Source: Cryobacterium sp. MP_M3 (GTDB taxonomy: Bacteria; Actinomycetota; Actinomycetes; Actinomycetales; Microbacteriaceae). From it: a DNA stretch of 64,000 nucleotides. Below the pieces are notes generated by a model. That model was given only the letters and a program-made list of their open reading frames with translations, was not told the DNA's origin and did no database searches. Shown in pieces: positions 9,169 to 59,675 of this stretch. The stretch is taken from the NCBI RefSeq assembly GCF_015752155.1, contig NZ_JADOVI010000001.1, positions 558,001-622,000 of the forward strand, written 5' to 3'. Numbering within the stretch: position 1 is the first letter of the stretch; each line of letters begins with the position of its first letter. The position numbers were made by a program, and so were the translations under genes.

Positions 9169-9261
9169 CCCTGTCGAATTCGACGGAGATATTGCCGGAA
9201 ACGGCCCGGAATCGTCAGCTCAGCGGCCGAACGGGCAAAATCTCCGTCGAATTCGACAGGG
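9169..9261. repeat. Intergenic inverted repeat IR-A
   Basis: Perfect 22-bp arms at 9169-9190 and 9240-9261. Each arm contains the self-complementary GTCGAATTCGAC. A further 5-bp stem lies inside (TTGCC 9192-9196 with GGCAA 9234-9238). It lies between the sucD terminator and the -10 of the DUF6350 gene. It is one of six intergenic elements of the same architecture in this window. Confidence 0.85.
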
Positions 9262-9297
9262 GCGGCGAGGGCGAAACCCGCAGCCTGCCCGGCCAAG

Positions 9298-9303
9298 TAG
9301 GCT
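9298..9303 (+). promoter_or_regulatory. -10 hexamer TAGGCT, near-leaderless promoter
   Basis: TAGGCT 8 nt before the ATG at 9312. Confidence 0.5.
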
Positions 9304-9311
9304 CGTGGCCG

Positions 9312-10565
9312 ATGAACCGCATAACGACAGCCCTGCTCGCCGCTCTCGAGGCGGTCATTGTCGTCGCCATCGGCGTCGGGATCGCGCTCGTGCCGCTGAC
9401 CGTGCTCTGGGCCACCCAGTTCGGCCTCGCCATCGACTGGGTCGTCTTCTGGCGGGCCGCGGTGGACGTCTGGCTGCTCGGCAACGGCGTCGACCTGACC
9501 GTGCAACTCGACCCGGCAGTGGTCACCGCGCTCGGGCTGCCCGGCTCAGAGGCCCCGTTCACTCTCACCATCGCCCTGCTCGGCTACGGTCTGCTGGCCG
9601 TGCTGCTCGGCCGGCGCACCGGCGCCCGCGCCGCCGAAACCCCGTACCGCTGGGTCGGCGCCGGGGCCGCGATCGCCTGCTACGGCCTGCTCGCGACCGT
9701 GCTCAGCCTGACCGCGGGCACGGATGCTGTGCGTCCCTCACTCCCGCAGGGAATCCTGCTCCCGACGGCGGTCTACGCGGCCGGGGTGCTCAGCGGTGTG
9801 CTCAGCGGCCTGCTCGGCGGCGCGCCCCGCGGCCAGGCGGCCGGCGCCCTCGTCAGGCGCTACCGCACCCTGCCCGCCGTGGCCCGCGGCATCGCGGCAA
9901 CGGCCCTCCGCGGCGGAACCGCCGCCGCCGCCGCCATCGTCCTGGTCTCCGCCGTGGCCGTCTTCGTGCTCATCCTCAGCAACTACGCCACGGTGATCGG
10001 CCTCTACGAGACGGTGCAGTCCGGCCTGACCGGCGGCATCGTGCTCACCCTGCTCGAGCTCGCGCTCATCCCCAACCTGGTCGTCTGGGCGGCCGCCTGG
10101 CTCGTCGGACCCGGCATCGCGGTCGGCGTCGGCACGAGCGTGTCCCCGGTCGGCACGGCCCTCGGCTCGGTGCCCGGCCTGCCCATCCTGGGGGTGCTCC
10201 CGCACGGCACGCTCGGGTTCGGGTTCCTCGGCCTGCTGGTGCCCGTCCTGATCGGCTTCCTCGCCGCGGCCGTGACCCGGCAGCGACAGGCCAGCACCGA
10301 CACGGCGCCGCCCACCATCCCGCAACAGCTGGTCACCGGGCTGGCGACGGGAATCGTCGCCGGCATCCTGCTCGGCCTGCTCGCCTGGTGGTCCGGCGGG
10401 GCGATGGGCCCCGGGCGGCTCGTGGAGGTCGGTCCCAACCCCCTGCTGGTCGGACTGCTCACCGCCGTCGAGGTGGGTGTCGCGGCCTGCGCCGGGCTGC
10501 TGACCCCGCATCCGTTCCAGCGCGGCCGCGTCACACCGAGGAACGAACCGGCCGCCAAACGGTAG
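9312..10565 (+). CDS. DUF6350 family membrane protein
   Basis: A 417-residue, Ala/Gly/Val-rich membrane protein with about nine or ten hydrophobic helices. It matches the actinobacterial family DUF6350 in length, composition and place: such genes commonly lie directly upstream of purN-purH, as here (9 nt before purN). Some databases call the family PerM-like cell-division proteins; nothing in this sequence proves that role. The ATG at 9312 is chosen because TAGGCT lies 8 nt before it and no Shine-Dalgarno sequence is seen. Confidence 0.75.
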   Translation: MNRITTALLAALEAVIVVAIGVGIALVPLTVLWATQFGLAIDWVVFWRAAVDVWLLGNGVDLTVQLDPAVVTALGLPGSEAPFTLTIALLGYGLLAVLLGRRTGARAAETPYRWVGAGAAIACYGLLATVLSLTAGTDAVRPSLPQGILLPTAVYAAGVLSGVLSGLLGGAPRGQAAGALVRRYRTLPAVARGIAATALRGGTAAAAAIVLVSAVAVFVLILSNYATVIGLYETVQSGLTGGIVLTLLELALIPNLVVWAAAWLVGPGIAVGVGTSVSPVGTALGSVPGLPILGVLPHGTLGFGFLGLLVPVLIGFLAAAVTRQRQASTDTAPPTIPQQLVTGLATGIVAGILLGLLAWWSGGAMGPGRLVEVGPNPLLVGLLTAVEVGVAACAGLLTPHPFQRGRVTPRNEPAAKR

Positions 10566-10568
10566 GCT
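10563..10568 (+). promoter_or_regulatory. -10 hexamer TAGGCT, leaderless promoter for purN
   Basis: TAGGCT 6 nt before the GTG at 10575; it overlaps the stop codon of the preceding gene. Confidence 0.55.
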
Positions 10569-10574
10569 CGTCCC

Positions 10575-11168
10575 GTGCTGTCATTGGTCGTGTTGATCTC
10601 AGGCGGGGGATCCAACCTTCGCTCCCTGCTCGAGGCGTGCCAGGATGCCGAATACCCGGCCCGGGTCGTCGCCATCGGCGCCGACCGTGACGCCGACGGC
10701 CTCGACCTCGGCGAAGAGTTCGGGATCCCGACCTTCACCGTGCCGTTCACCTCCCACCCCAGCCGGGAGGCCTGGGGCGACGAACTCCTGGCCCAGATCC
10801 GGCAGTGGACGCCCGACCTGGTCGTGCTGAGCGGTTTCATGCGCCTGCTCCCGCCGCGGGTGGTGGCCGCCCTGTCGCCGCAACTGCTGAACACGCATCC
10901 CGCTTACCTGCCCGAATTCCCCGGAGCGCACGGGGTGCGCGACGCGCTCGCCGCCGGCGTGCCGGAAACCGGGGCCAGTCTCATCGTCGTCGACACCGGT
11001 GTCGACGACGGACCGATCATCGCGCAGGAGAGGGTGCCGGTGCTACCCGGCGACACCGAAGCATCCCTGCACGAACGAATCAAGACCGTCGAGCGGCGCC
11101 TGCTGGTGCAGGCCGTGCTCGACATCGCCAACGGACACGTCGACCTCGAGGAGCATTCCCAGATATGA
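10575..11168 (+). CDS. purN: Phosphoribosylglycinamide formyltransferase
   Basis: Third step of de novo purine synthesis: transfers a formyl group from 10-formyl-THF to GAR. 197 residues, family size. The N-terminal [14 protein letters not shown] binds the phosphoribosyl moiety; the catalytic Asn-His lie in [17 protein letters not shown] near residue 105 and the Asp in [12 protein letters not shown] near residue 140. It starts with GTG 6 nt after TAGGCT. Its stop overlaps the purH start (ATGA), so the two should be translationally coupled. Confidence 0.96.
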
Positions 11169-12841
11169 GCGGGCACACCAACGACCAGAGCCTGTACCGC
11201 GAGCGGGACACCGTGCCGGTGAAGCGCGCGCTGATCTCCGTCAGCGACAAGACCGGCCTGCTCGAGCTCGCCGGGGCCCTCGCGGCCGCCGGCGTCGAGA
11301 TGGTCTCGACCGGATCGACCGCCGCGACCATCCGCGCCGCCGGCCACGAGGTGACGGATGTCTCCGCCGTGACCGGTTTCCCCGAGTCCCTCGACGGCCG
11401 GGTGAAGACCCTGCACCCAGGCGTGCACGCCGGCATCCTCGCCGACCTCCGCCTCGAGTCGCACGAGGCCCAGCTGAACGACCTCGGCATCGCCGCCTTC
11501 CAGCTCGTCGTCGTGAACCTCTACCCGTTCGTCGAGACCGTGGAGTCCGGCGCGTCCCCGGCCGAGGTCATCGAGCAGATCGACATCGGCGGACCGGCGC
11601 TCGTGCGCGCCTCGGCGAAAAACCACGCGAACGTGGCGATCGTGGTCGACCCCGACGACTACGACGAGATCATCGCGGCCGTCGCCGGCGGCGGAACCAC
11701 GCTGCGCCTGCGCCAGAAGCTCGCCTCGCTCGCCTTCGAGCACACGGCCGGCTATGACCTCAGCGTCTCCGCCTGGTTCACCGAGAACGTCTACGACCAG
11801 TGGCAGGACGACGTCGAGGCCCTCGACGAGGAGATCCTCGAACAGTTCGACGCCGTCATCGCCACCAGCTTCGAGGCCGAGGCGTCGTTCCCCGACACCC
11901 TGGCCATCCAGGCCACCCGCAAGGCCGTGCTCCGCTACGGCGAGAACTCGCACCAGGCGGCGGCGCTCTACGTCGGCGACGGCGGCGAGGGCATCGCGCA
12001 GGCCGTGCAGCGCCACGGCAAGGAGATGTCCTACAACAACTACGTCGACGCCGACGCCGCTGTGCGCGCCGCCTTCGACTTCACGGAGCCGGCCGTGGCC
12101 ATCATCAAGCACGCCAACCCGTGCGGGATCGCCATCGCAGGCCCCAAGGCACCGGATGCGATCGCCTCCGCCCACAAGCGCGCCCACGACTGCGACCCGG
12201 TCTCCGCATTCGGCGGGGTCATCGCGGCCAACCGCATCGTGACCCTCGGCATGGCCGAGACCGTCAGCCAGATCTTCACCGAGGTGCTCGTCGCCCCCGG
12301 CTTCGAACCGGCCGCGTTCGAACTGCTCAGTGCGAAGAAGAACATCCGCCTGCTCGAACTCCCCGCCGACTACCACCGGTCCTCACTCGAACTGCGCCAG
12401 ATCTCCGGCGGACTGCTCGTGCAGGAGACCGACACCTTCGACGACTTCGACTCGTCCGGCTGGACTCTCGCCGCGGGCGAGGAGGTCGACGCGGCCACCC
12501 GCGCTGACCTCGAGTTCGCGTGGAAGGCCTGCCGTTCGGTGAAGTCGAACGCCATCCTGCTCGCCCACGGCGGCGCATCCGTCGGGGTGGGGATGGGCCA
12601 GGTCAACCGGGTCGACTCCTGCCACCTCGCAGTGCTGCGCGCGGGCGACCGTGCGGCCGGCTCCGTCGCGGCCTCCGACGCGTTCTTCCCGTTCGCCGAC
12701 GGCCTGCAGGTGCTGCTCGAGGCCGGCGTCACCGCGGTCGTGCAGCCCGGCGGCTCGGTGCGCGACGAAGAGGTCATCGCGGCGGCCGTCGCAGCCGGCG
12801 TCAGCATGTACTTCACCGGGGAGCGCCACTTCTTCCACTGA
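11165..12841 (+). CDS. purH: Bifunctional AICAR transformylase / IMP cyclohydrolase
   Basis: Last two steps of IMP synthesis. 558 residues, slightly longer than the usual 520-530 because of an N-terminal extension of about 20 residues. Residues 20-165 are the MGS-like IMP cyclohydrolase domain ([45 protein letters not shown]). The rest is the AICARFT domain, with RYGENSHQ, the catalytic KHANPCG near residue 315, and a terminal [18 protein letters not shown]. The substrate AICAR (ZMP) is the ligand class read by the ZTP riboswitch upstream of glyA at 39855. It overlaps purN by 4 nt. Confidence 0.97.
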
Positions 12842-12924
12842 TCGCGTGCGGCAGGCACCGCGGACTCTGGCACGATTAAGGGGTCCGAGGTGCCACCAGA
12901 CGCGCAGCGGCGGGAAGGGCAGCC

Positions 12925-14121
12925 GTGTCAGACCTCGAGGGCTTCATCCAGCCGGACTACCTGATCGCGCTCCTGGTCGCCGTCGTGGCCGCCGTGGCGA
13001 TCACGGCGATCACCGCGCTCGTGTTCCGGATGGTCGGCCGGAGAGAGGCGTGGGCCCGCACCCTGGTCGGGCTGGCCAGGGTCCCGTTCCGGCTGACCCT
13101 GCTGATGGGCACCATGTGGTCCGTCAACACGCTCTTCCTGCAGAGCACGGCGGAAATCGAGCGCCTGGTCGACTTCGTGTTCCGCGCCCTGTTCATCGCC
13201 GCGGCCACCTGGCTGGTCTGCGCGCTGCTCTACTTCATCGAGGAAGTCACCGCCGTCCGCTATCGGGTCGATGTGCGCGACAACCGGGTCGCCCGGCGGG
13301 TGCGCACCCAGTTGCGGATGCTGCGGCGCATCGGCGTCGTCGTGGTCATCATCTGCGCCATCGGGGCCGTGCTGCTGAGCATCCCGGGGGCCGCGACCCT
13401 GGGCGCCAGCCTGTTCGCCTCGGCCGGCCTGCTCAGCGTCGTCGCCGGCCTCGCCGCCCAGTCCACCCTCGCCAACGTGTTCGCGGGGGTGCAACTGGCC
13501 TTCAACAACGCCCTGCGGGTGGACGACGTCGTAATCGTCGAGAACGAGTGGGGGAAGATCGAGGAGATCACGCTCACCTACGTGGTCGTGCACATCTGGG
13601 ACGACCGGCGGATGGTGCTGCCGTCGACCTACTTCACGACGAATCCGTTCCAGAACTGGACCCGGCACAACAGTGAACTGCTCGGCGCCGTCGAGTTCGA
13701 CCTGGACTGGCGGGTCGACCCGGCCGGCATGCGCCGGGAGCTGGACCGGATCGTCGCCCAGACCGACCTCTGGGACGGTCGCGTCGTCGTGCTCCAGGTG
13801 ACGGATGCCGTCGGCGGCTTCGTGCGGGTGCGCGTGCTGGTCTCCGCCGCCGACGCTCCCACCCTGTTCGACCTGCGCTGCCTCGTGCGGGAGAACCTGA
13901 TCGACTGGCTGATCACCCACAACCCCGACGCCCTGCCGGTGGGCCGGATGGAGCTGCGGCGGGAACCGCAGACCAAGCCTGCCGTCGCGCGTGGGCCGCA
14001 GCCGTCGCACCCTGTGACCGCGCCGATCGGGCTGTTCTCCGGCGATGAGAACGCCAAGGCGCGGGCCGCGGAGTTCACCACGTCGATCCCCGTGCAGGAG
14101 GGCCCGGCGGGCGAGCGCTGA
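12925..14121 (+). CDS. MscS-family mechanosensitive channel
   Basis: 398 residues starting at GTG with GGAAGGG upstream. There are four hydrophobic segments (about residues 10-30, 55-75, 85-105, 135-185). The pore helix and beta domain carry the family pattern: GLLSVVAGLAAQSTLANVFAGV near residue 165, then VDDVVIVENEWGKIEEITLTYVVV and FTTNPFQNWTR. It is expected to open on membrane tension and release solutes during hypo-osmotic shock. The C-terminal 60 residues are polar and family-atypical. Confidence 0.88.
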   Translation: MSDLEGFIQPDYLIALLVAVVAAVAITAITALVFRMVGRREAWARTLVGLARVPFRLTLLMGTMWSVNTLFLQSTAEIERLVDFVFRALFIAAATWLVCALLYFIEEVTAVRYRVDVRDNRVARRVRTQLRMLRRIGVVVVIICAIGAVLLSIPGAATLGASLFASAGLLSVVAGLAAQSTLANVFAGVQLAFNNALRVDDVVIVENEWGKIEEITLTYVVVHIWDDRRMVLPSTYFTTNPFQNWTRHNSELLGAVEFDLDWRVDPAGMRRELDRIVAQTDLWDGRVVVLQVTDAVGGFVRVRVLVSAADAPTLFDLRCLVRENLIDWLITHNPDALPVGRMELRREPQTKPAVARGPQPSHPVTAPIGLFSGDENAKARAAEFTTSIPVQEGPAGER

Positions 14122-14202
14122 CGAGGCTAGTCTGGGTCAGTCGCCGCGCCACAACCGCGGCCCCAACCCACCGGCCCACAAGGTCAGCAAGGAGAAACAG
14201 TC

Positions 14203-15285
14203 ATGACCCTCACGCAACCATCACCGTCGCTGGATGCGCTCGTCGGAATCCCGTTCACCCACGAACGCGTGCTGATCACCACGGGCATCCGCTCGGGCCT
14301 CGTGATCACCGTGGCCGTGCACTCGACCAGGCTCGGTCAGGCCCTGGGCGGCGCCCGGATGTGGCAGTACGAGAACTGGACCGATGCCGTCGCCGACGCC
14401 CTGCGCCTCTCCGCGGCGATGACTCTGAAGAACGCGGCCGCCGGGCTGAACCTCGGCGGCGGGAAGTCCGTCATCCAGCTGCCCCTCGGCACCACGCTCA
14501 CCGAGGCGGAGAAGCGCGACGCCATGCTCGACCTCGGCGACGCGATCGAGAGCCTGGACGGCGCCTACATGACGGCGGAGGACGTGGGCACGAACGCCGA
14601 GTTGATGGCCGTAGTCAAGGAACGCACCGACCACGTGTGCGGCCTCCCTGCCGCCAGCGGCGGCGTGGGCGAACCCGCCGACGCGACCGCGGCGGGCGTC
14701 TACGCCAGCGTCGTCGCCACCCTCGACGCGCTGTTCGGCAGCCGGGAGGTGTCCGGCCGGCACATCGTCATCTCCGGGCTCGGCCAGGTCGGCGGACGCC
14801 TCGCCACGGCGCTGGCCGCGGCGGGCGCCCGCCTCACCGTCAGCGACGTCAACCTCGCCCGGCGGGAGCTGGCCGACTCGCTCGGCGCCACCTGGGTGTC
14901 CGTCGACGACGTGCACCTCGTGCCGGCCGACCTGTTCGTGCCGTGCGGCCTCGGCGGGGTGCTCACCGCCCGCGTGATCGGCGAACTCAATGTGCTCGGG
15001 GTCGTCGGCGCCGCCAACAACCAGCTCGCCCAACCGGAGGGCGCCGCCCAGCTCGACGCGCGCGGCATCCTCTGGGCGCCCGACTTCGTCGTCAACTCCG
15101 GCGGGGTCATCTACCTGGCGCTCGCCTCGGAGCCGGGTGCCGACCTGGACGCCGTCGCGGCGCGGGTCGACGCGATCGGCGACACCGTGTCGACCATCTT
15201 CGCGGATGCCCGCGAGCAAGGGATCACGACCCTCGCCGCCGCCGAGGACCTGGCCGCCGCCCGGCTGGACGCGGCGCGCCGCTGA
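14203..15285 (+). CDS. Leucine/valine (branched-chain) amino acid dehydrogenase
   Basis: A 360-residue Glu/Leu/Phe/Val dehydrogenase with AAGGAGAAAC about 5 nt before the ATG. The dimerisation/catalytic domain (residues 20-140) shows MTLKNAAAGLNLGGGKSVI, with the catalytic lysine in GGGKS, and MTAEDVGTNAELM. The Rossmann domain starts near residue 185 with VISGLGQVGGRLA. Length and the short N-terminus fit leucine or valine dehydrogenase rather than GDH. It reversibly deaminates branched-chain amino acids to 2-oxo acids with NAD. A TAGTCT hexamer at 14128-14133 may be its -10. Exact substrate preference is not decidable here. Confidence 0.88.
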   Translation: MTLTQPSPSLDALVGIPFTHERVLITTGIRSGLVITVAVHSTRLGQALGGARMWQYENWTDAVADALRLSAAMTLKNAAAGLNLGGGKSVIQLPLGTTLTEAEKRDAMLDLGDAIESLDGAYMTAEDVGTNAELMAVVKERTDHVCGLPAASGGVGEPADATAAGVYASVVATLDALFGSREVSGRHIVISGLGQVGGRLATALAAAGARLTVSDVNLARRELADSLGATWVSVDDVHLVPADLFVPCGLGGVLTARVIGELNVLGVVGAANNQLAQPEGAAQLDARGILWAPDFVVNSGGVIYLALASEPGADLDAVAARVDAIGDTVSTIFADAREQGITTLAAAEDLAAARLDAARR

Positions 15286-15398
15286 CGCCTGGCCGGCCGG
15301 ACGCGCCGGGGCGCTGACGCCGGCGCCGCCGCGGGGGAGTCTCGGCCCCCACGCAGCGGCGCCCGGCACCCGCCGAATCACGGGCGGCTGCCGGGCCA

Positions 15399-15404
15399 TA
15401 CACT
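15399..15404 (+). promoter_or_regulatory. -10 hexamer TACACT, leaderless promoter
   Basis: TACACT 6 nt before the ATG at 15411. Confidence 0.5.
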
Positions 15405-15410
15405 GGCGGG

Positions 15411-16199
15411 ATGGAACCCGTCGCCGTGCCCCAGCCTTCCCAGCGCCGCGCCCTCGTGCGCCGGCCCGCCCGCAACCTCGCCGAGGGGCTCCTCACCCAC
15501 ATCGAGCGCACCGAGGTGGATCCTGCGCTGGCCGAGACGCAGTGGCGCGGCTACGTCGCCGCGCTCGCGGCCGAGGGCTGGGAGACCATCGAGGTCGAGC
15601 CGGCGCCGGAGCTGCCGGACTCCGTCTTCATCGAGGACGCCGTGATCATGTTCGGCGACCTCGCCGTCGTCGCCAGCCCGGGCGCCGAGACCCGCCGTGG
15701 CGAGACGGCCGGGGCCGAGGCCGCCGTGGCCCGCCTCGGCATTCCCGTGCAGCACATCGACCTGCCCGGGACCCTCGACGGCGGCGACGTGCTGAAGGTC
15801 GGCCGCACCGTGTACGTCGGGCGAAGCCTCCGCACCAACGACGAGGGCATTGCAGCGTTGCGGAACATCCTCGCGCCGCGCGGCTACACGGTGGTCGCGG
15901 TGCCGATCAGCCGCGCGCTGCACCTCAAGACCGCGGTCACCGCGCTGCCCGACGGCACCGTGATCGGCTTTCCGCCGCTCGTCGACGACCCGTCGGTGTT
16001 CGAGAGGTTCCTGCCCGTTCCGGAGGCCCACGGCACCGCGGTCGTCGTGCTCGACAACCGCACCGTACTGATGTCCTCGGCCGCCCCGCGCTCGGCGGAA
16101 CTCTTCGCCCAGCGCGGCTACCGCGTTGTCGCCGTCGACATCTCCGAGTTCGAGAAACTCGAGGGCTGCGTCACCTGCCTCAGCGTGCGGGTCCGCTGA
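15411..16199 (+). CDS. ddaH: Dimethylargininase (DDAH) or related amidinohydrolase
   Basis: 262 residues with the pentein fold pattern of dimethylarginine dimethylaminohydrolase. Substrate-binding PDSVFIEDAVIMF lies near residue 65, LDGGDVLKVG near 122, the catalytic His in SRALHLKTAVT near 170 and the nucleophilic Cys in EGCVTCLSVRV at the extreme C-terminus, which is typical of the family. It should hydrolyse N-methylated arginine to citrulline and methylamine. The start lies directly behind a -10-like hexamer. No arginine-pathway gene adjoins it. Confidence 0.88.
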   Translation: MEPVAVPQPSQRRALVRRPARNLAEGLLTHIERTEVDPALAETQWRGYVAALAAEGWETIEVEPAPELPDSVFIEDAVIMFGDLAVVASPGAETRRGETAGAEAAVARLGIPVQHIDLPGTLDGGDVLKVGRTVYVGRSLRTNDEGIAALRNILAPRGYTVVAVPISRALHLKTAVTALPDGTVIGFPPLVDDPSVFERFLPVPEAHGTAVVVLDNRTVLMSSAAPRSAELFAQRGYRVVAVDISEFEKLEGCVTCLSVRVR

Positions 16200-16211
16200 C
16201 GGATTCTTCCC

Positions 16212-16240
16212 TTGCGCTCGGCCGGCATCGGTCGTAGTCT
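16212..16240 (+). promoter_or_regulatory. Sigma-70-type promoter for the 44-codon ORF/ABC operon
   Basis: TTGCGC (16212-16217), a 17-nt spacer and TAGTCT (16235-16240). It lies 60 nt before the ATG at 16300 and is one of the few sites here with both hexamers at good spacing. Confidence 0.5.
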
Positions 16241-16299
16241 GAAAGGCTGCCTGATCAGGGGGGGCACAGCACAGAAGACGACGCGCTCAGGAGGCCGAC

Positions 16300-20797: not shown

Positions 20798-20865
20798 TCG
20801 CGGCGCACCGTGCGGAACGGGGCGCACCGTAGAACGTGCGCCGGCTTCCGCACGGTGTGCCGCGA
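20798..20865. repeat. Intergenic inverted repeat IR-F
   Basis: Arms 20798-20817 and 20846-20865 pair over 20 bp with one G-T type mismatch. Inside sits a second perfect stem, GGCGCAC (20821-20827) with GTGCGCC (20836-20842). It lies between the two cupin paralogues and has the two-tier form of IR-A to IR-E. Confidence 0.8.
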
Positions 20866-39844: not shown

Positions 39845-39854
39845 TAGGATCGAG

Positions 39855-39938
39855 CCTGTCGCAACTGGCGTAGCACGAAAGATGGGTCACCATCGGGGAG
39901 CGACTGACACGGTTAGTGGCCGCACGCCTGGGCCACGA
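39855..39938 (+). ncRNA. ZTP/ZMP riboswitch (pfl motif) upstream of glyA
   Basis: The conserved pfl blocks occur in order: GTCGCAACTGGCG (39858-39870), GGGTCACCATCGGGGAGCG (39884-39902) and CCGCACGCCTGGGCC (39920-39934). The last block (CCGC...GCCTGGGC) forms the pseudoknot partner in known ZTP aptamers. A TAGGAT hexamer at 39845-39850 fits as -10. A weak hairpin (ACGACG 39935-39940 / CGTCGT 39952-39957) follows, without a T tract, then AAGGAG before glyA, so control could be translational or Rho-linked. The ligand, ZTP/ZMP, accumulates when 10-formyl-THF is short and PurH stalls; binding normally turns expression on. Confidence 0.88.
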
Positions 39939-39982
39939 CGATTAATCATCACGTCGTTAACCAATTCGTCTAAGGAGACCCC

Positions 39983-41296: not shown

Positions 41297-41360
41297 ACTG
41301 TTCCCGTTCCGGTCGAGGGTGCCCGCTGTGCGGGCGACTCTCGACCGGAACGGGAACAGT
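41297..41360. repeat. Intergenic inverted repeat IR-B
   Basis: Perfect 21-bp arms (41297-41317 and 41340-41360) enclose a second stem GCCCG-CTGTG-CGGGC (41321-41335). Outside, CCCG and CGGG could extend pairing past a 2-nt bulge. It starts 15 nt after the glyA stop and ends 60 nt before folD, so it may attenuate read-through or stabilise the glyA mRNA end. Confidence 0.85.
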
Positions 41361-41420: not shown

Positions 41421-42305
41421 ATGAGCGCAATCACCCTCGACGGAGTCAAGACCGCCTCCGCGATCAAGTCGGAACTGATCGACCGCATTACCGACCTCCA
41501 GGCGCACGGGGTCGTGCCCGGGCTCGGCACACTGCTCGTCGGCGACGACCCGGGCTCTCGCTCGTACGTCGCGGGCAAACACCGCGACTGCGCCGAGGTC
41601 GGCATCGAGTCGATCCGGATCGACCTGCCGGGGTCGGCGACGAGCGCGGATGTCCGCGCCGCCATCAAGGACCTCAACGCCAGCCGCGAGGTGACCGGCT
41701 ACATCATCCAGCTGCCGCTCCCCGTCGGCCACAACGACAACGCCATGCTCGAACTCATCGACCCGTCCAAGGACGCCGACGGCCTGCACCCGACCAACCT
41801 CGGCCGGCTGGTCCTGGGCATCGAGGGCGAACTGCGCTCGCCCCTCCCATGCACCCCGGCGGGCATCGTCGAACTGCTCCGCCGCTACGAGGTGCCGATC
41901 GTCGGCCGCAAGGTCGTCGTCGTCGGCCGCGGCCTCACCGTCGGCCGCCCGCTCGGCCTGCTCTTCACCCGCAAAGGCCTGGATGCCACGGTCACCCTCA
42001 CCCACTCGCGCACCGTCGACCTGGCCGGCGAGGTGCGCCGCGCCGACATCGTCGTCGCGGCGGTCGGGGTGCCGCACCTGATCCAGGCCGACTGGGTCAA
42101 GCCGGGCGCCGCGGTGCTCGACGTGGGCATCACCCGGGTGACCGACCCGGAGACCGGCAAGGGCCGGCTGACCGGGGACGTGCATCCGGATGTCGCCGAG
42201 ATCGCCGGCCACCTCTCGCCGAACCCGCGCGGCGTCGGACCGATGACCCGCGCCATGCTGCTGAGCAACGTCGTCAAGGCCGCCGAGCATGCCCTGCGCC
42301 CCTGA
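41421..42305 (+). CDS. folD: Methylenetetrahydrofolate dehydrogenase/cyclohydrolase
   Basis: Bifunctional enzyme turning the 5,10-methylene-THF made by GlyA into 10-formyl-THF, the cofactor of PurN and PurH. 294 residues. [17 protein letters not shown] holds the catalytic Lys region, [13 protein letters not shown] is the folate block, and the NADP site is [13 protein letters not shown] near residue 165, followed by TLTHSRT. The ATG at 41421 is chosen from the family N-terminus; no strong ribosome site is seen. It probably depends partly on the riboswitch-controlled glyA transcript. Confidence 0.95.
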
Positions 42306-48923: not shown

Positions 48924-48987
48924 CCGCCGAACTGTGAGAAATGCGCCATTCCGGCCCGAAAACCCGGCTTTGCTCACAGTTCGGCGG
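48924..48987. repeat. Intergenic inverted repeat IR-C
   Basis: Perfect 15-bp arms CCGCCGAACTGTGAG (48924-48938) and CTCACAGTTCGGCGG (48973-48987), each followed inwards by AAA or TTT one base later. It lies in the divergent gap before the ybaK-like gene. Its arm sequence is shared with IR-D beyond the other end of that gene. Confidence 0.85.
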
Positions 48988-49042: not shown

Positions 49043-49048
49043 GGCTGC

Positions 49049-49564: not shown

Positions 49565-49641
49565 CGCCGAACTGTGAGAAAGTCCGCCCTTGGCCGTATG
49601 ACTTTGCCGGGGTTTCGGGCGGCCTTTCTCACAGTTCGGCG
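49565..49641. repeat. Intergenic inverted repeat IR-D
   Basis: 18-bp perfect arms (49565-49582 and 49624-49641), then one mismatch and six more pairs (49584-49589 with 49617-49622). The arm CGCCGAACTGTGAGAAAG is the same sequence as in IR-C. It sits between the convergent ends of the ybaK-like gene and galK. Confidence 0.88.
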
Positions 49642-52117: not shown

Positions 52118-52144
52118 CAAAGCAAACTAAGTGAAGATGGTTCT

Positions 52145-53005
52145 ATGTCCGAATCAGAATCGCCGAAGGACCAGCACCCGGAACCGCCAGCCGATCGGGG
52201 TGCCCTTCCGCCGCACCAGCGGCGGGAGCGCATCCAGATGCTCGTCGACGAGCGCGGGTTCGTGCGGGTCAGCGAGCTCCGTGAGGCATTCGGAGTGTCC
52301 GGAGTGACCGCCAGGAGCGACCTCGACGCCCTCGAGGCGGCCGGGGTCCTCCAGCGCGTGCACGGCGGGGCGGTGCCGGCCCCGACGACGGGAGCCGGGG
52401 CGAGGCCCGACCGGGAGTCGTCGTTCGAGGAGGCGCTGGCGGCATCCGTGCTCCCCAAGCAGCAGATCGGCGTGCTCGCCGCCTCGCTCGTCTCGAGCGG
52501 CCAGAGCCTGATCCTCGACGTGGGCACGACCACCCTCGCGGTCGCGCGGGCCCTGCTGGCCCGCACCGAGTTGACCGACGTGGTCATCATCACGAACGGC
52601 CTGAGCATCGCGCTCGAACTCGAACCGGCCATTCCCCGGTTCACCGTGATCGTCACCGGAGGGTCGCTCCGCCCGCTGCAGCATTCCCTGGTCGAACCCC
52701 TGGCTGCGACCGTTCTTGGACAGGTGCACGCCGACCTGGCCTTCATCGGCTGCAATGGCGTGGACGCGGAGCGCGGCGTGACCAACATCAACCTCCCCGA
52801 GGCCGGCGTCAAGACGCTCATGCTCGCCGCCGCGACCCGGGCGATCGTCGTCGCCGACGGCTCGAAACTCGGCCAGGTGCATCTCGGCCGGATCGGCGCG
52901 CTGACCGCCTTCGACACCCTCGTGACGGATGCCGACGCCTCCGCCGACCTCCTGGCACCCCTCCGCGACGCCGGCCTCACCGTTCTCCAGCCGGGCTTAG
53001 GCTGA
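52145..53005 (+). CDS. DeoR/GlpR-family transcriptional regulator
   Basis: 286 residues. The N-terminal helix-turn-helix reads ERIQMLVDERGFVRVSELREAFGVSGVTARSDL in sequence (residues 27-60), the DeoR signature; the C-terminal sensor domain (SILDVGTTTLAVARAL-like LILDVGTTT near 120, ITNGLSIALEL, GCNGVDAERGVTN) binds phosphorylated sugars in this family. It is divergent from galTK and followed by galM, so it is probably the gal regulator. A 25-residue polar N-terminal extension precedes the DNA-binding domain. Confidence 0.88.
   Translation: MSESESPKDQHPEPPADRGALPPHQRRERIQMLVDERGFVRVSELREAFGVSGVTARSDLDALEAAGVLQRVHGGAVPAPTTGAGARPDRESSFEEALAASVLPKQQIGVLAASLVSSGQSLILDVGTTTLAVARALLARTELTDVVIITNGLSIALELEPAIPRFTVIVTGGSLRPLQHSLVEPLAATVLGQVHADLAFIGCNGVDAERGVTNINLPEAGVKTLMLAAATRAIVVADGSKLGQVHLGRIGALTAFDTLVTDADASADLLAPLRDAGLTVLQPGLG
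52998..53003 (+). promoter_or_regulatory. -10 hexamer TAGGCT, leaderless promoter for galM-like gene
   Basis: TAGGCT 6 nt before the ATG at 53010; it overlaps the end of the DeoR gene. Confidence 0.5.
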
Positions 53006-53009
53006 AACC

Positions 53010-53966
53010 ATGCGAGCAGCGACAGGCACACAGTACGAGTTGCGGGCGGCCACCCCGAGCGGGCCGGCCCTGGCGATCGTGACCGAGGTGGCGGCCGGAC
53101 TCCGCGTGTATTCCGTTGACGGAATAGACCTGGTCGAGCCCTTCCCTGCCGAGACGATCCCGCCCAAGTCGGCCGGCGTCGTGCTGGTCCCGTGGCCCAA
53201 CCGTATCCGTGACGGCGTGTGGCTGTATGACGGCAAGCCCAGGCAGCTTGCGCTCAACGACCCCGAGGAGCGCAACGCCATCCACGGGCTGCTCAGCGTC
53301 TCGCCGTATCGGCTGCTCGACCGCAGCGCGGCCGCCGTCACCCTGGCCGCGACGGTGTTCCCCCGGCTCGGCTACCCGTTCCAGCTCGACACCACGGTCA
53401 GCTATGCCCTCACCGACGACGGGCTCGACGTCACCCACACGGTGCGCAACGTGGGCACGGATGCCGCCCCGGTCGCCATCGGCGCACACCCCTATCTGAA
53501 GATCGGCGGCGTCCCCACCGACGACCTCACGCTCACGGCGGCGGTCGGCACGCGGATCGAGGTGGACGAACGCCTGAACCCGGTCGGCGAGGTGCCGGTG
53601 GACGGCACCGGCTACGACCTCCGTGGGGGCCGGCCGGTGCGGGACCTCGACCTGGACGACGGCTTCACCGCCGTCATGCGGGAGGCCGGCGGCGGCAAGG
53701 GAGCGGTGGAGCACTCGCTGACCGCGCCCGACGGCCGAAGCGTCATCCTCTGGGGTGACGAGAACATGCGCTATGTGCAGGTCTTCACGCCGCGCAACTT
53801 CCCGGTCGACACTCCCGACGGGCCGGTCCTGGGGCGCGCGGTCGCGGTGGAGCCGATGACGGCCCCCGCGAACGCCTTCAACACGGGGGCCGGCCTGCGC
53901 TGGCTGGAGCCCGGCGAGGCCTGGACGGTGCGCTGGGGCATCCGCCACACCGGCCTGGCCGACTGA
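53010..53966 (+). CDS. Aldose 1-epimerase family protein (GalM-like)
   Basis: 318 residues. Catalytic positions are kept: NAIHGLLS near residue 90, IGAHPYLKIGG near 160 (His acid) and AVEPMTAPANAFNTG near 285 (Glu base). It interconverts alpha and beta anomers of galactose or related sugars, feeding galK. Start 4 nt after the DeoR stop and 6 nt after TAGGCT, so it may be transcribed both from its own leaderless promoter and with the regulator. Confidence 0.9.
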   Translation: MRAATGTQYELRAATPSGPALAIVTEVAAGLRVYSVDGIDLVEPFPAETIPPKSAGVVLVPWPNRIRDGVWLYDGKPRQLALNDPEERNAIHGLLSVSPYRLLDRSAAAVTLAATVFPRLGYPFQLDTTVSYALTDDGLDVTHTVRNVGTDAAPVAIGAHPYLKIGGVPTDDLTLTAAVGTRIEVDERLNPVGEVPVDGTGYDLRGGRPVRDLDLDDGFTAVMREAGGGKGAVEHSLTAPDGRSVILWGDENMRYVQVFTPRNFPVDTPDGPVLGRAVAVEPMTAPANAFNTGAGLRWLEPGEAWTVRWGIRHTGLAD

Positions 53967-53999
53967 GCCTGGGTGGTCGGCTGGCAACGGGCAAACGGA

Positions 54000-54040
54000 A
54001 CGCCCGGTGGACGGCCGCAGTGCGGACATCCACCGGGCGT
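54000..54040. terminator. Bidirectional hairpin between convergent galM-like and permease genes
   Basis: Perfect 12-bp stem ACGCCCGGTGGA (54000-54011) / TCCACCGGGCGT (54029-54040) with an inner CCGCA/TGCGG hairpin. It lies mid-gap between two gene ends. Confidence 0.75.
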
Positions 54041-54068
54041 CGCCGACCGGTGACCCGGTCGGCCGCTC

Positions 54069-55568
54069 TCAGGACAGCACGTCCATGACCAGTTCCTCGT
54101 TCTCGCTGTGGGTGACGAGGGACAGAACGTAACCGCCGGCGAGCAGCGCGAACGGCAGCGCCACCAGGACCCAGCCGATCGGGCTCAGGCCCCAGGAGGT
54201 CGTCGTGGGGTCGACGCCCACGGCCACCGTGCCGGCGAGAAGCCCGAACCGGCTCATCAGGAGGTACTCGCCGAGAACCAGGCCGATCGCGGCGAGGACC
54301 GGCGCGACGACCGTCTGGAACAGGTTCTCGCCTCCCTTGTTCCGGTGGAAGTAGACGATGATGGCGATGCAGACGAGGACCTCGATCAGCACGATCGAGA
54401 CGACGGCGAGACCGCTGAACCAGTAGAACATGTTCAGCACCGGGTCGAGCTGGAAGACCGCGAAGGCCGCGATGATGAGGCCGGTGACGACCGACGTGAC
54501 CAGGGACGCGGTGCTCGGCGCGCCGCGCGGGTTCACGTGGCTGAGCGGCGCGGGCAAGGCCCCGCCGCGACCGAGCGCGAACAGGTAGCGACCCGCCGCG
54601 TTCTGGAAGGCGAGCAACCCGGCGAACAGGCTGGACAGCACGAGGATCCCCATCAGGGTCGCCATCCACGGGCCGACGTACTGCGTGGCGAGGGAGAAGA
54701 GCACGGCGGCGGGGTCGGCCAGCGGCACCCCGTCGAGGGTCGAGAGCTCCACGGTCTTCTCGACGACGGAGGAGGCGCCCATCCCGGTCACCATGGCGAA
54801 GGCGGTGAGCGCGAAGAGCACCGTGATGACACCGACGGCCAGGTACGTCGCCCGGGGCACGACCTTCTTGGGGTCCTTGGATTCCTCGCCGTAGATGGCC
54901 GTGGCCTCGAAGCCGATGAACGAGGCGAACGCGAAGGCGAAGGCGATCCCGGCCGAACCGGTGAGCCCGCCGGCGAGGATCGCGGTCGGGTTGAACGAGG
55001 CCCAGACGTTGATGCCCTCCGGCCCGCCGTCGGCGAGGATCGCGACCGACGTGACGATGAGGGCGGCTAGCTCGAGCAGCATGAGCACGCCGAGGACCTT
55101 GGCGCCCACGTCGACGCTGAGCAGGGAGAGCAGGGTGACCAGCACCCAGGCGAGGAGCGTCCAGGCCCACCAGGGGAGCAGTCCGACCTGGGCGGCCAGG
55201 AGCCCTCCGAAGAACCCGTAGATCGCGAGCTGGATGGCGAGGTAGGCGAGGATCGACACGAACGCCGAGGCGGTGCCCATGTGCTTGCCGAGGCCGCGGC
55301 CGACGTAGGCGAAGAAGGCGCCGGCGTTGGTCACCCGCTGGCTCATCGCCGCATAGCCGACGCTGAAGAGGAGCAGGGTGATTCCGACGATGAGGTAGGC
55401 CCCCGGGGCGGCCGCCCCGTTGCCGAGCACGATCGCCACGGGCACCGCGCCGGTCATGCCGACGAGCGGGGCCGCGGCGGCGACCACGAAGAAGACGATG
55501 CCGATCACGCCGAGCCTGCCCTTGTGCAGGGTGGTCTCCGGTTCGGCTTCGGTGCGGGTGGTCGTCAT
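54069..55568 (-). CDS. APC-superfamily amino acid/amine permease
   Basis: 499 residues from ATG 55568, with GAGGAG 6 nt upstream. About 12-14 hydrophobic helices; GVIGIVFFVVAAAAPLVGMTG at the start, VTNAGAFFAYVGRGLG in the first loop and FIGFEATAIYGEESKDPKKVVPRATY in the middle are typical of APC permeases. Its neighbours are a FeaR-like AraC regulator and a copper amine oxidase, so it may import an amine such as phenylethylamine, tyramine or putrescine; substrate is inferred from context. Confidence 0.84.
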   Translation of the reverse strand: MTTTRTEAEPETTLHKGRLGVIGIVFFVVAAAAPLVGMTGAVPVAIVLGNGAAAPGAYLIVGITLLLFSVGYAAMSQRVTNAGAFFAYVGRGLGKHMGTASAFVSILAYLAIQLAIYGFFGGLLAAQVGLLPWWAWTLLAWVLVTLLSLLSVDVGAKVLGVLMLLELAALIVTSVAILADGGPEGINVWASFNPTAILAGGLTGSAGIAFAFAFASFIGFEATAIYGEESKDPKKVVPRATYLAVGVITVLFALTAFAMVTGMGASSVVEKTVELSTLDGVPLADPAAVLFSLATQYVGPWMATLMGILVLSSLFAGLLAFQNAAGRYLFALGRGGALPAPLSHVNPRGAPSTASLVTSVVTGLIIAAFAVFQLDPVLNMFYWFSGLAVVSIVLIEVLVCIAIIVYFHRNKGGENLFQTVVAPVLAAIGLVLGEYLLMSRFGLLAGTVAVGVDPTTTSWGLSPIGWVLVALPFALLAGGYVLSLVTHSENEELVMDVLS

Positions 55569-55765
55569 GGGGTACTCCTCATCGAGTAGACAACGAAATT
55601 CAGGGGGTGAGGGCGCCGGCCGGCGGGTGCAGGGTGCAGCCGGTGTCGCCGGCGGTGTCGCCAACGGTGCCTGTGTGACGACTCTGCCCGAAGGCACGGT
55701 CGCGGAGTTGCCATTCCGGGTACGCCAGTTGTCGACCAGCGATGAAACGGATGCCGGGTTCCCGG

Positions 55766-56740
55766 TCAGCCGCGGCGGTAGCTGCTGGGCGGTTCGCCGA
55801 ACGCGGTGCGGAAGATCCGACTGAAATGCGCGGCGTCGATGAATCCCCAGCGCGCGGCGATCACGCCGACCGAGCGGGGGGCCAGGATCGGGTCCCGCAG
55901 GTCCCGGCGGCAGTGCTCCAGCCGCCGGGACCGGATCCAGCCGGACACCGTGGTGTCGGCCGCATGGAACACGTTGTGCAGCTGGCGCAGCGAGATGAAG
56001 TGGGCCGCGGCGATCCCCGCCGGCGACAGCTCCGGGTCGCCGAGCTCGGCCTCGATGTAGCGGTGGATGCTCGTGAGCAGGTCGCCGCGGGCTCCGGGCG
56101 CCGGGTCGCGACGGATGCTCAGCTCACTCTCGAACATCGTCGCGACCAGGTCCACTGCGTTGTAGGCGAGCCGGTGGCCGGTCGACCCGGACAGGGCGTC
56201 GAGGTTCTCGGCCAGCTGCACCATGAACGGGCTGATCATCCGGCCGAGCCCGGCGTCGCCGGCCATCCGCACCGCGGTGAGTTGCGCGATGGCATCCGCC
56301 GGCAGGTCGAGCGCATCGTGCGGGAACATCAGCACGAGGGTGCGGAAGTCCCGTTCGAACGCCAGGGTGTAGGGCCGGTTCGTGTCGTAGACGGCGAGGT
56401 CGCCGGGTCGGAGGGTGGCCTCGCGGTTGTCCTGGATCAGGATCCCGCTGCCGGAGAGCTGCAGGTTGAGTTTGAAGTACTGCCGGTCGGACCTGGCGAT
56501 GAGTGACGGGGTGCGCAGGACCTGGTGCCCGTTGGCCGTGACCTCCACGATGGAGAGGTCGTCGAGCACCCGGGAGCGCAGCGTGCCGTGGAAGTCCGGA
56601 GTGTCGGATCGCACCTCGAGCGGAACGAACGAATCGGAGACCAGGGTGCGCCACTCGCCGAACGAGTGCGCCTCCGCGCGACGGACGGCGTCGTCGCTGC
56701 CGCCGGCCGGGGTGGGCTGGGTGGCCATGGTCATCGTCAC
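55766..56740 (-). CDS. AraC-family regulator (FeaR-like)
   Basis: 324 residues from a GTG with AAGGAG 6 nt upstream; ATGs at 56734 and 56728 are alternatives. The N-terminal AraC_binding_2-type domain carries RPGDLAVYDTNRPYTLAFERDF near residue 115, a pattern shared with FeaR and NphR. The C-terminal double helix-turn-helix spans residues 220-320, ending AHFSRIFRTAFGEPPSSYR. FeaR in E. coli activates the tynA amine oxidase; a copper amine oxidase lies 860 nt away here, so a similar activator role is likely. Confidence 0.87.
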   Translation of the reverse strand: MTMTMATQPTPAGGSDDAVRRAEAHSFGEWRTLVSDSFVPLEVRSDTPDFHGTLRSRVLDDLSIVEVTANGHQVLRTPSLIARSDRQYFKLNLQLSGSGILIQDNREATLRPGDLAVYDTNRPYTLAFERDFRTLVLMFPHDALDLPADAIAQLTAVRMAGDAGLGRMISPFMVQLAENLDALSGSTGHRLAYNAVDLVATMFESELSIRRDPAPGARGDLLTSIHRYIEAELGDPELSPAGIAAAHFISLRQLHNVFHAADTTVSGWIRSRRLEHCRRDLRDPILAPRSVGVIAARWGFIDAAHFSRIFRTAFGEPPSSYRRG

Positions 56741-56848
56741 GGTGGGCTCCTTTGCCGTCGTGTACAGACACGCTGTGGCAGTAACCTAGCCGGGTTCGTC
56801 GGTAAAGTCACTCTTTTTTCGACAGATGTTGAAAAACGACGGTGCGAA

Positions 56849-57445
56849 TCAGTCGCCCGTCGCCAGCAACTGGAAGTAGCCGTCGAGCTGGGTGATCAGC
56901 TGGTTCGGCGAGTGGTCGGCGGGGGAGAGGGCCGCAGTGATCTGGGCGCCCAGCACCACCGTCATCAGGTGCCCGACGATGTCCGCGTCGTTGACGAGCG
57001 TGTGCACTTCCCCGCTCGCGCGGCACTCGGTGAGCAGTGCGCGCAGGGCCTGCCGCCACTGCAGCATGGAGGCGTCGTGCAGCTTCGCCTTGGCCGGGTC
57101 GCCGAGGGCCTTCTGCCAGAACGGGATGACGATCCGGGCCTCGCTGATCCGGATGTCGTCCAGGGGGAGGATCTCGTGGCAGTAGGCGCGCAGGGCGACG
57201 AGTCCGGTCTTCCCTGTCGTGGCGGTGCGCATTCGTTCGCTGGTCTGGCTGAACACGTGCCCGAACGCGAAGGTGAGTAGATCGTCCTTGGTGGGGAAGT
57301 ACGGCTTCAGTGCGCCGTTGGCGAACCCGGCTTCAGCCGCGATTTCGCGCATCGTCGCACCCTCGATGCCGTGCCTGGCGATGATGCGCCAGGTCGCGTT
57401 GACCAGCTCGACCCGACGCTGGTCGTGGTCGACAACCTTTGGCAT
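56849..57445 (-). CDS. TetR-family transcriptional regulator
   Basis: 198 residues. The N-terminal helix-turn-helix is clear (RRVELVNATWRIIARHGIEG, MREIAAEAGFANGALKPYFPTKDDLL at residues 10-55). The C-terminal ligand domain resembles the BetI/TetR_C_6 type. It is divergent from the copper amine oxidase gene and within 150 nt of it, so it probably represses that gene and itself in the absence of substrate. An AT-rich gap (57446-57597) separates them. Confidence 0.88.
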   Translation of the reverse strand: MPKVVDHDQRRVELVNATWRIIARHGIEGATMREIAAEAGFANGALKPYFPTKDDLLTFAFGHVFSQTSERMRTATTGKTGLVALRAYCHEILPLDDIRISEARIVIPFWQKALGDPAKAKLHDASMLQWRQALRALLTECRASGEVHTLVNDADIVGHLMTVVLGAQITAALSPADHSPNQLITQLDGYFQLLATGD

Positions 57446-57597
57446 GCTTCCCCGTCTCCGATAGTTCTCGAAGGAATTGACCCTTGCCCCCGAGCATAGT
57501 GAGCCCTATTCTTCTACAACCATAGGAAATAAATGCAGTGACGCATTTGGATGCCCGCGCATCCACCTGCCCGGCCTACAACCTCGAAAGGGTTCCC

Positions 57598-59541
57598 ATG
57601 ACACTCGCCTCCGCTGACGCCACCACCGCGTCGCCGCCCCTCGCCGGTGCGCACACGCTGACCACCGCCGCCGAACTCGAGTCGGTCAGGGCCGTCCTGG
57701 GCGACGCCGGCCTGCTCGGGGAGAACGTGCGGGTGGCCTACCTGGGCCTGCTCGATCCGCCGCGGGGCGCCGCGCCCGGCGAACCGAACCGACGCTTCCG
57801 GGCCTTCCTGCACGACATCTCCGGCGCCGCTCCGCGGGACGTCACGGTCTCGGCCACCCGGCGGGCCGTCGAATCCGTGGTCATGCTCGACACCGCGGTG
57901 ACCGGGGAACTGCCCGTGCTCGAGGAGGAGTTCGGCGCCGTCGAGGAGCTCCTCACCCACGACGCGCGCTGGCTGGCCGCGCTCGCCGCGCGCGGGCTGG
58001 ATGTCGCCACCGTGCGGGTCGCCCCGCTGTCGGCCGGCGTCTTCGAGTATCCGGAGGAGAAGGGCCGGCGCATCCTGCGCGGGCTCGCCTTCGTGCAGCA
58101 GTTCCCGGAGGACAGCCCGTGGGCCCACCCGATCGACGGGCTCGTCGCCTACGTCGACATCGTGAGCAAGACCGTCGACCAGGTCATCGACTACGGCGTG
58201 GTGCCGGTCCCGGCCGAGCACGGCAACTACACCGACCCCATGCTCACCGGCCCGCTGCGTGAGACGCTCAAGCCGATCGAGATCACCCAGCCGGAGGGCC
58301 CGAGCTTCACCGTCACCGGGGGGAACCATGTCGAGTGGGAGAAGTGGAGCCTCGATGTGGGCTTCGATGTGCGCGAGGGCGTCGTGCTGCACAACATCAG
58401 CTTCGACGATGCCGGGGTGCGCCGGTCGATCATCCGCCGGGCGTCGATCGCGGAGATGGTCGTGCCCTACGGCGATCCGTCGCCCGTGCGTTCCTGGCAG
58501 AACTACTTCGACACCGGCGAGTACCTGGTCGGCCAGTACGCCAATTCGCTCGAACTCGGCTGCGACTGCCTCGGTGAGATCACCTACCTCAGCCCCGTCA
58601 TCACCGACGGTTTCGGCAACCCCCGGGAGATCCGCAACGGGATCTGCATGCACGAGGAGGACTGGAGCATCCTCGCCAAGCACAGCGACCTCTGGACCGG
58701 AATCGAGTACACCCGCCGCAACCGCCGCCTGGTGATCTCCTTCTTCACGACCATCGGCAACTACGACTACGGCTTCTACTGGTACCTCTACCTCGACGGC
58801 ACCATCGAGTTCGAGGCGAAGGCCACCGGCATCGTCTTCACCAGCGCGTACCCGGGCAAGGGCTACCCGTATGCCTCGGAGCTGGCCCCGGGTCTCGGCG
58901 CCCCGTTCCACCAGCACCTGTTCAGCGCCCGGCTGGACATGGCCGTCGACGGGCTCACCAACCGGGTCGAGGAGGAGGAGGCGGTGCGGGTGCCGATGGG
59001 AGTCGGCAACGAACGCGGCAACGCCTTCACCCGCAAGCGCACGGTGGTGGCCAGCGAGGCCGACGGGGTGCGGGAGGCGGACATGCGGCACGGCCGCACC
59101 TGGCTGGTCTCGAACCCGAACGTGCTCAACCGCCTCGGCGAGCCGGTCGGCTACAAGCTCTACCCGCAGGGCCAGCCGACCCTGCTCGCGGACGAGGAAT
59201 CGTCGGTCGCGCGCCGGGCGGCGTTCGCGACCAGGGACCTCTGGGTCACCCGTTACGCCGAGGAGGAGCGCTACCCGACCGGGGACTTCGTCAACCAGCA
59301 CGCGGGCGGCGCCGGTCTTCCGGCCTATATGGCGGCGGATCGTGACCTGGACGGGCAGGACATCGTGCTCTGGCACACCTTCGGCCTGACCCACTATCCG
59401 CGGGTCGAGGACTGGCCGATAATGCCGGTCGACACCGCCGGATTCAAGCTCAAGCCCGAGGGTTTCTTCGACCGCAGCCCGGTCCTCGACGTGCCGGCGA
59501 GCGCCCCGGCCGCGGCGGGCGAGGACCACTGCCACTGCTGA
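57598..59541 (+). CDS. Copper-containing primary amine oxidase (TPQ enzyme)
   Basis: 647 residues from ATG 57598, chosen for the AAAGGG upstream; a GTG at 57538 is in frame but lacks signals. The TPQ-forming Tyr is in [12 protein letters not shown] near residue 385 (consensus N-Y-D/E-Y). The copper ligands are HQHL near residue 438 and THYP near 599. The general base Asp lies in YVDIVSKTV near 185 region. Length and order match Arthrobacter phenylethylamine/histamine oxidases. It oxidises primary amines to aldehyde, NH3 and H2O2. The protein ends in EDHCHC, a possible extra metal tail. Confidence 0.93.
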
Positions 59542-59587
59542 CCTCCCCCCACGCGAGCCTCTGCCGGATGCCCCAGTGTGTGGCTCT

Positions 59588-59675
59588 CGTTCCGAATTCA
59601 GGTGTGGACCCCGGAACAGTGCCACGGATGCCCGCCGGCGCGCCGGATCGGAGTTGTTCTCCTGAATTCGGGACG
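59588..59675. repeat. Intergenic inverted repeat IR-E
   Basis: 11-bp perfect arms CCGAATTCAGG (59592-59602) and CCTGAATTCGG (59661-59671), extended outwards to 59588/59675 with one T-G pair. A CCGGCGCGCCGG palindrome (59634-59645) sits inside. It shares the GAATTC core with IR-A. It lies between the amine oxidase and DUF445 genes. Confidence 0.75.

Follow-up and report, generated by a model that had tools for sequence, protein, structure and literature searches.

What are the six long inverted repeats that lie between the genes of a 64,000-nucleotide stretch of Cryobacterium sp. MP_M3? This stretch, called the window in what follows, covers positions 558,001 to 622,000 of contig C1 of a genome (G000) of 3.94 Mb in 56 contigs, and the repeats are named IR-A to IR-F. 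A sequence-only reading had proposed that they could be a single degenerate family of REP/MITE-like elements (repetitive extragenic palindromes, miniature inverted-repeat transposable elements) in which only the fold is kept, and that interpretation is partly supported by our results. All six repeats exist at the places given for them, five folding far beyond shuffled sequences and IR-E modestly so, and many further intergenic copies with compensatory change were found, as proposed for dispersed REP/MITE-like elements. The idea of one family did not hold: IR-A, IR-C with IR-D, IR-E and IR-F represent separate families with their own conserved arms. Most of the six are probably copies of several unrelated, non-autonomous families of mobile palindromes (REP/MITE-like), tolerated at the 3' ends of genes; IR-B is a similar hairpin without certain kin.

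IR-C (48925..48986, 62 bp) and IR-D (49565..49641) belong to what we call the 63-bp family and have the arm CGCCGAACTGTGAG in common. The former lies in a divergent gap, before a gene for a tRNA-editing-domain (YbaK-like) protein, and is the only repeat of the window so placed; the latter lies in a convergent gap and is now 77 bp long. IR-A (9173..9257) is an 85-bp unit of family A with ends GTCGAATTCGACGGAG, in a co-directional gap flanked by a succinyl-CoA-ligase-like gene and a DUF6350 gene; alignment of the family shows that its outer CCCT/AGGG pairs are flank, beyond the unit. IR-F (20798..20865) is a unit of family F (68-74 bp) with arms TCGCGGCGCACC, and IR-E (59589..59674) an 86-bp unit of family E with ends GTTCCGAATTCAGG. 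IR-B (41297..41360) is a long hairpin in the co-directional gap between a glyA-like and a folD-like gene; by eye, all that it has in common with any cluster is the 11-nt core TTCCGGTCGAG, seen in a single member of a five-copy cluster distinct from those of the other families. The arms had been said to differ between most of the six; IR-C and IR-D do share theirs, and the others differ because the repeats belong to different families.

Could palindromes of this size arise by chance in a GC-rich genome? An ungapped-stem scan of the window gave seven stems scoring at least 13, five of which are IR-A, IR-D, IR-B, IR-F and IR-C. Against 200 dinucleotide shuffles, RNA folding yielded z-scores of -10.7 for IR-A, -8.0 for IR-F, -12.6 for IR-B, -5.9 for IR-C, -8.9 for IR-D and -3.1 for IR-E. 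IR-E is the weakest of the six, with one shuffle in 200 folding equally well, and taken alone it would suit a chance origin; it is nevertheless backed, since 17 other 86-bp units have the same arms. Family membership, covariation and recurrence speak against chance, as does a count over 464 kb, which gave 42 inverted repeats without overlap but 10 centres of mirror repeats. A chance origin, to which we attach practically no probability, is refuted for IR-A, IR-C, IR-D, IR-E and IR-F, and for IR-B the case rests on its fold and on the hairpins of another family that relatives carry in the same gap.

In order to see how the repeats group, we surveyed hairpins in 861,568 bases, 22% of the own genome, of which 80 kb (in contigs C5, C6, C9 and C11) had been chosen for holding copies of the 63-bp family, so that the counts of this family in the survey are biased. 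Of 64 non-coding hairpins with a span of at least 40, 39 fell into 10 multi-copy clusters. IR-A, IR-C/IR-D and IR-F were found in three separate clusters and four kin of IR-E in a fourth; IR-E itself, which scores below the survey level, and IR-B, classed as coding, are both outside the 64. A single family for all six was ruled out, as there are no arms in common between families. We also noted an eight-copy cluster of GGTCGAGCTTGTCGAGACC-type palindromes and smaller clusters of GGGATGGAGTTTTTCGCGAC, TTGCGGAGAAAACACC, GCATAACTCCTGCA and GTGGCTAACTCAGGAG (contigs C1 and C2).

Searched at fixed lengths of 85 and 86 bp, families A and E have 5 and 18 units in the own genome, those of family E being drawn from 30 of 42 arm matches; the arm spacings of both families also recur independently of the fixed-length search. 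Terminal inverted repeats and near-constant length, the marks of a MITE, are thus seen in both, and likewise in the 63-bp family described below. Family E has 14-bp inverted ends and, in most copies, an interior in one conserved orientation, which is MITE-like. Family F is present in 5 copies of 68-74 bp in the sampled 22%. As to the inner palindrome once described for IR-E, there is no consistent second stem: across the 18 units the first 14 pairs form in 72-100%, and deeper pairing is patchy (0-94%). At one place (L316, G000:C16:59600-59820), a full 86-bp unit is preceded by a tandem series of extra family E left arms, set apart by short spacers, which looks like repeated copying of the end.

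The 63-bp family was followed beyond the own genome with a covariance model built from 14 copies, and copies were recovered both there and in Cryobacterium relatives. The own genome holds 13 uninterrupted places and, in addition, one copy split by a transposon; apart from IR-D, its copies are 62-65 bp long. Matches were found in 44 of 57 Cryobacterium genomes, the own included. The complete genome G041 has at least 75 copies, since at least 150 matches were obtained and each copy matches at most twice, so that copy number across the genus ranges from 0 to at least 75. A family-level search gave matches in 10 of 299 genomes, 4 of them Cryobacterium and 6 from four other genera, the latter with lower scores.

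We aligned 66 copies, 4 of them from other genera, over 63 gap-free columns and counted all 31 possible pairs. Pairing was seen in 85.4% of cells, compared with 75.7% in shuffled and 32-41% in slid controls, and double-sided change occurred at 24 of the 31 pairs (208 cells, against 86.7 shuffled and 44-99 slid). The outer 13 pairs vary little, with compensated switches at pairs 2, 3, 9, 11 and 12, and covariation is mostly an inner feature. Thus the proposal that arms change while pairing is kept holds for this family as far as compensatory change goes, but its outer arms are mostly conserved in sequence. Single columns excepted, the flanking columns pair no better than composition predicts, whereas many inner columns do; therefore the unit has sharp edges. 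The same result ruled out the idea that the units are nested in older hairpins.

At 14 shared sites (49 pairs, those involving the IR-D copy excluded), orthologues from clades with different arm spelling have arm identities of 0.62-0.73 and are about as dissimilar as non-orthologues, while identity within a genome averages 0.88-0.90 in G041 and 0.98-0.99 in G024. The 20 scattered copies fetched from G024 vary in their 11-nt loop, but their 26-bp arms are nearly identical. We considered that copies at fixed positions might evolve in concert and did not accept this, because in 34 of 70 directed comparisons the orthologue is closer than the own-genome average and because nearer relatives retain a vertical signal. 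For this reason we keep concerted arm change only as part of one clearly unlikely explanation, in which the 63-bp palindrome, at about six helical turns, would be a genus-wide bidirectional gene-end device: a trans-acting factor would read two arms at fixed spacing between convergent genes, and all arms in a genome would change with the factor. If this were true, distant species would keep the same kind of site in some shared gaps with a different arm spelling.

Mobile palindromes should come and go between relatives, and the sites of the window were compared in three of them (HLT2-28, algoritolerans and PH31); IR-A lacks anchors in all three, and PH31 anchors are absent or incomplete at IR-A, IR-D and IR-E. 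The IR-C site is occupied in all three relatives. The IR-F site is occupied in two of three, the PH31 anchors abutting without a gap (absent or not resolved). IR-D is present in HLT2-28 and absent from the gap in algoritolerans. The gap of IR-B holds a family A hairpin in HLT2-28 and algoritolerans and neither type in the third relative, and that of IR-E a one-arm remnant in HLT2-28 and a different palindrome in algoritolerans. Across 21 Cryobacterium loci compared by eye, at least four hairpin families are represented in the region 3' of the YbaK-like gene, which at some loci has none. Of 60 fetched copies of the 63-bp family, 19 from relatives could be anchored in the own sample. For 10 of these, at 3 own sites, the own genome also has a unit; for the other 9, at 6 own sites, it has none, and two of the six unit-free sites hold other palindrome families. 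3' of ybaK in C. shii (L029, ~6500-6830), there is an alternation of two hairpin families together with direct repeats of the flanking sequence, which suggests local amplification of a hairpin block.

The sequence-only reading had noted that the repeats occupy all types of gap and are not simply terminators. This argument is weakened by the single divergent case in the window and by the wider set, since the 63-bp and 86-bp families are rich in convergent and poor in divergent gaps. With genes called throughout by our own codon-score gene caller, 60 copies of the 63-bp family from 15 genomes, drawn from the best-scoring matches and including orthologues, lie in 38 convergent, 18 co-directional and 4 divergent gaps, and three of the four divergent copies are the IR-C site in different species. 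Gap counts from the own-genome sample alone (gaps of at least 60 bp) would give about 8 convergent and about 16 divergent of 60 (p = 6e-19 for convergent). Among 21 fetched copies in G041, three of which are also in the 60-copy set, 14 are convergent, 6 co-directional and 1 divergent, and of the 18 family E units 10 are convergent, 6 co-directional and 1 divergent, the remaining one being called coding. Many units have both stop codons within 5-40 bp. In G041:C1 (for example L327, L328, L334 and L335), the unit nearly fills the convergent gap, with gene ends 1-14 bp from its edges. A C-over-G signal before units was dropped, as the composition that follows stop codons hardly depends on whether a hairpin is present.

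This distribution fits a role at 3' ends and also an insertion tolerated only away from promoters. The units could accordingly be, first of all, RNA hairpins of the host that selection maintains as bidirectional terminators or as stabilisers of 3' ends, and that incidental duplication has dispersed. Convergent enrichment with divergent depletion, the closeness to both stop codons, compensated change that keeps pairing and the presence of different hairpin families in one gap by species all agree with this explanation. Selection on the fold alone, however, leaves unexplained the near-constant lengths and conserved outer arms, the near-identical 26-bp arms of the 20 scattered G024 copies and the spread in copy number across a single genus (0 to at least 75), and the 63-bp family lacks a U-tract. 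We therefore regard it as rather unlikely.

The transposon-split copy shows what can happen to such a unit. The element is 1,262 bp long, with ends GGCAAAGTCA, and encodes a 393-aa transposase with HTH_38 and rve domains, a pair that we take to mark the IS30 type of insertion sequence (IS). It divides the unit into 33 + 33 nt with GCC duplicated (3 bp), which gives a 63-bp unsplit site and so places the entry at the exact centre of the unit. Six unpaired arms of G024, close to contig ends, adjoin IS30-type ends, every one with a different half-loop; since half-loops likewise differ from copy to copy in empty units, the IS entered pre-existing hairpins. A related element in G042 (transposase 81% identical) sits on the dyad of another palindrome, and there a single diagonal takes in both the arms and the IS ends. 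Flanking inverted arms with a score of at least 9 were found in 5 of the 24 IS30-type copies that have both ends, compared with 1.6% of swapped flanks; L213 was excluded from this test, six loci were dropped for an unclear terminal repeat, and the repeat tips were trimmed, which removed the arms of L214. A 25-residue remnant of an IS30-type transposase end was also seen about 160 bp from a 63-bp unit (G000:C9:142434-142740; L123, L213).

IR-D bears a trace of the same kind. Within it, at 49592..49608 on the minus strand, lie 17 nt that match the terminal 17-mer of the IS with one mismatch, the sole match in the window within four mismatches on both strands, with 27 nt of hairpin to the left and 33 nt to the right. 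IR-D is 77 bp long because it contains these 17 nt, and the inner stem once ascribed to it is in part this scar. Most likely, to judge from these letters, IR-D was once occupied by the IS, which was then partly deleted. In the HLT2-28 copy of IR-D, the final 6 nt of the IS end are present, once more followed on the right by 33 nt; this may be chance, or a more eroded state of the event seen in IR-D.

Such traces could also suggest that the palindromes owe their origin or their spread to the IS30-type transposase, as it sits at their centres and leaves scars. Against this, the half-loops beside the IS vary as they do in empty units, and in several genomes rich in units no related transposase was found at E 1e-20, so that we hold this to be very unlikely.

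Our favoured explanation is one of mobile, tolerated palindromes that would be able to act as bidirectional RNA ends; what we observed are the hairpins and their places. A trans-acting recombinase would recognise the unit ends and spread copies in bursts, and copies within one genome would therefore resemble each other. Copies would survive mainly 3' of stop codons and most of all in convergent gaps; a transcript entering these from either side could form a strong hairpin and so a bidirectional RNA end, either as a terminator or as a block to exonucleases; at gene 3' ends the units would perhaps be useful. An IS30-type transposase preferring near-palindromic targets would land at the dyad centre without doing harm, and scars such as that of IR-D would be what subsequent deletions leave behind.

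Several observations weigh against this picture, the first group concerning the mover. The Y1_Tnp domain (PF01797) of RAYT-type transposases, the partner once suggested for these repeats, was found in none of the 57 Cryobacterium genomes at E 0.001, with 5 of 14 control genomes positive. This also makes it extremely unlikely that the units are a REP/REPIN system moved by a RAYT (a Y1 tyrosine transposase); their small size, palindromic nature, extragenic places and many copies would suit one, as would the IS insertion mid-unit published for REPs, but the units exceed the 20-40 bp given for REPs in the passage cited (PMC3733652) and no GTAG/CGTC-type tag was noticed by eye in the 63-, 85- and 86-bp units, for which no formal scan was made. 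By eye, the unit edges of the 63-bp family and family E show no direct duplication of a target site, which is unusual for a MITE. The same observation bears on the view that the units are MITEs of a classical DDE insertion sequence, their arms being its terminal inverted repeats. The 14-bp inverted ends, the 86-bp length in 18 copies and the mostly one-orientation interior of family E favour such an origin, but no full-length parent with these ends was found among the 16 unpaired arms fetched in G024 and G054, part of those listed: six were IS30 insertions in the loop and ten had a mutated partner 62-63 bp away. We consider this origin possible, though not probable. Further, 19 of the 24 IS30-type copies failed the flank-palindrome test, and the unit-rich genomes G001, G004, G005, G021, G036, G044, G052 and G056 are without the related IS30 transposase at the threshold given above.

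The second group concerns RNA ends. The GC-rich hairpin of an intrinsic terminator is present, as the folding against shuffles shows, but no U-tract follows it in 60 copies of the 63-bp family, whose left flank is pyrimidine-rich and right flank purine (G/A)-rich; classical intrinsic termination is therefore not predicted. A separate terminator-like hairpin (9103..9126, plus strand; GGGCCCGCC-AGACCA-GGCGGGCCC, then TTCGTCGTC), identified by eye and not flagged by a stricter scan, adjoins IR-A on its upstream side, directly 3' of the succinyl-CoA-ligase-like gene. IR-B lies between glyA- and folD-like genes that run in one direction and perhaps form an operon, in which a full terminator would be harmful. 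Finally, hairpins shorter than 55 bp are likewise biased to convergent gaps (14 of 40), so that the convergent bias alone picks out no function.

As regards the surroundings, all six repeats had been described as strictly intergenic. IR-B overlaps the start of a mechanical open reading frame and was classed as coding by our gene caller, but we take it as intergenic because the folD-like gene can begin at an alternative ATG at 41421; the Pfam match begins at residue 6 of that reading. In an Rfam scan, the sole entry reaching its threshold was the ZMP/ZTP riboswitch (RF01750, 59.6 bits) at 39851-39940 of the window on the plus strand, directly 5' of the glyA-like gene. The top relatives of the YbaK-like protein encoded between IR-C and IR-D are from Cryobacterium, the best with 95% identity.

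The repeats matter in several ways. They represent an actinobacterial case of REP/MITE-like repeats without a RAYT match, and Cryobacterium, with 0 to at least 75 copies, offers a natural series for tracing the mover. The preference for convergent gaps, together with different families per gap, allows a test of the idea that gene ends can be furnished by mobile palindromes. The entry of an IS30-type element at the exact dyad is a clean natural target site, and the scar of IR-D shows one route of decay.

Among the results listed by literature searches, a few of which named the genus, titles and opening lines of abstracts showed no report of such repeats in Cryobacterium. As far as the cited passages describe them, the REP, BIME and REPIN elements are likewise short extragenic palindromes in many copies and targets of ISs (PMC3116915, PMC3733652, PMC2817692). 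Here, in contrast, the units are 63-86 bp and near constant in length, several unrelated families coexist in a genome, the bias to convergent gaps is strong and there is no Y1 transposase match in the genus. Bacterial MITEs and the pneumococcal RUP, BOX and SPRITE are, in the passage cited, also short, non-autonomous, mostly intergenic and in some cases terminator-like (PMC10969869), whereas no target duplication was seen and no parent IS found for the present units. Stem-loop sequence families of bacteria are, by the passages cited, repeat families defined by their hairpin as well (PMC2267715, PMC1590033); the high-GC Gram-positives in the table passage of the former are Corynebacterium and Mycobacterium, Cryobacterium not having been looked up in it.

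The breaking of a repeated extragenic palindrome by an IS is known from IS1397, ISKpn1 and IS621, which insert in REPs, and the passage cited argues that the flanking pieces are the broken target and not IS ends; the families it names for REP insertion are IS3, IS110, IS4, IS256 and IS5 (PMC1525189). The element described here differs from those five in being of the IS30 type and in its target, a 63-bp unit that it entered exactly at the dyad, duplicating 3 bp.

To go by the title of a paper of 1999, IS1630 reportedly targets inverted repeats. In the passages cited, four copies of IS1630 have duplications of 16-26 bp, and IS30 has a nearly palindromic hot spot (LHS), which it enters at the central 2 bp in one plasmid (PMC9333248, PMC3317919). 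By comparison, the target in Cryobacterium is a dispersed family of repeats, and the duplication is one of 3 bp rather than 16-26 bp.

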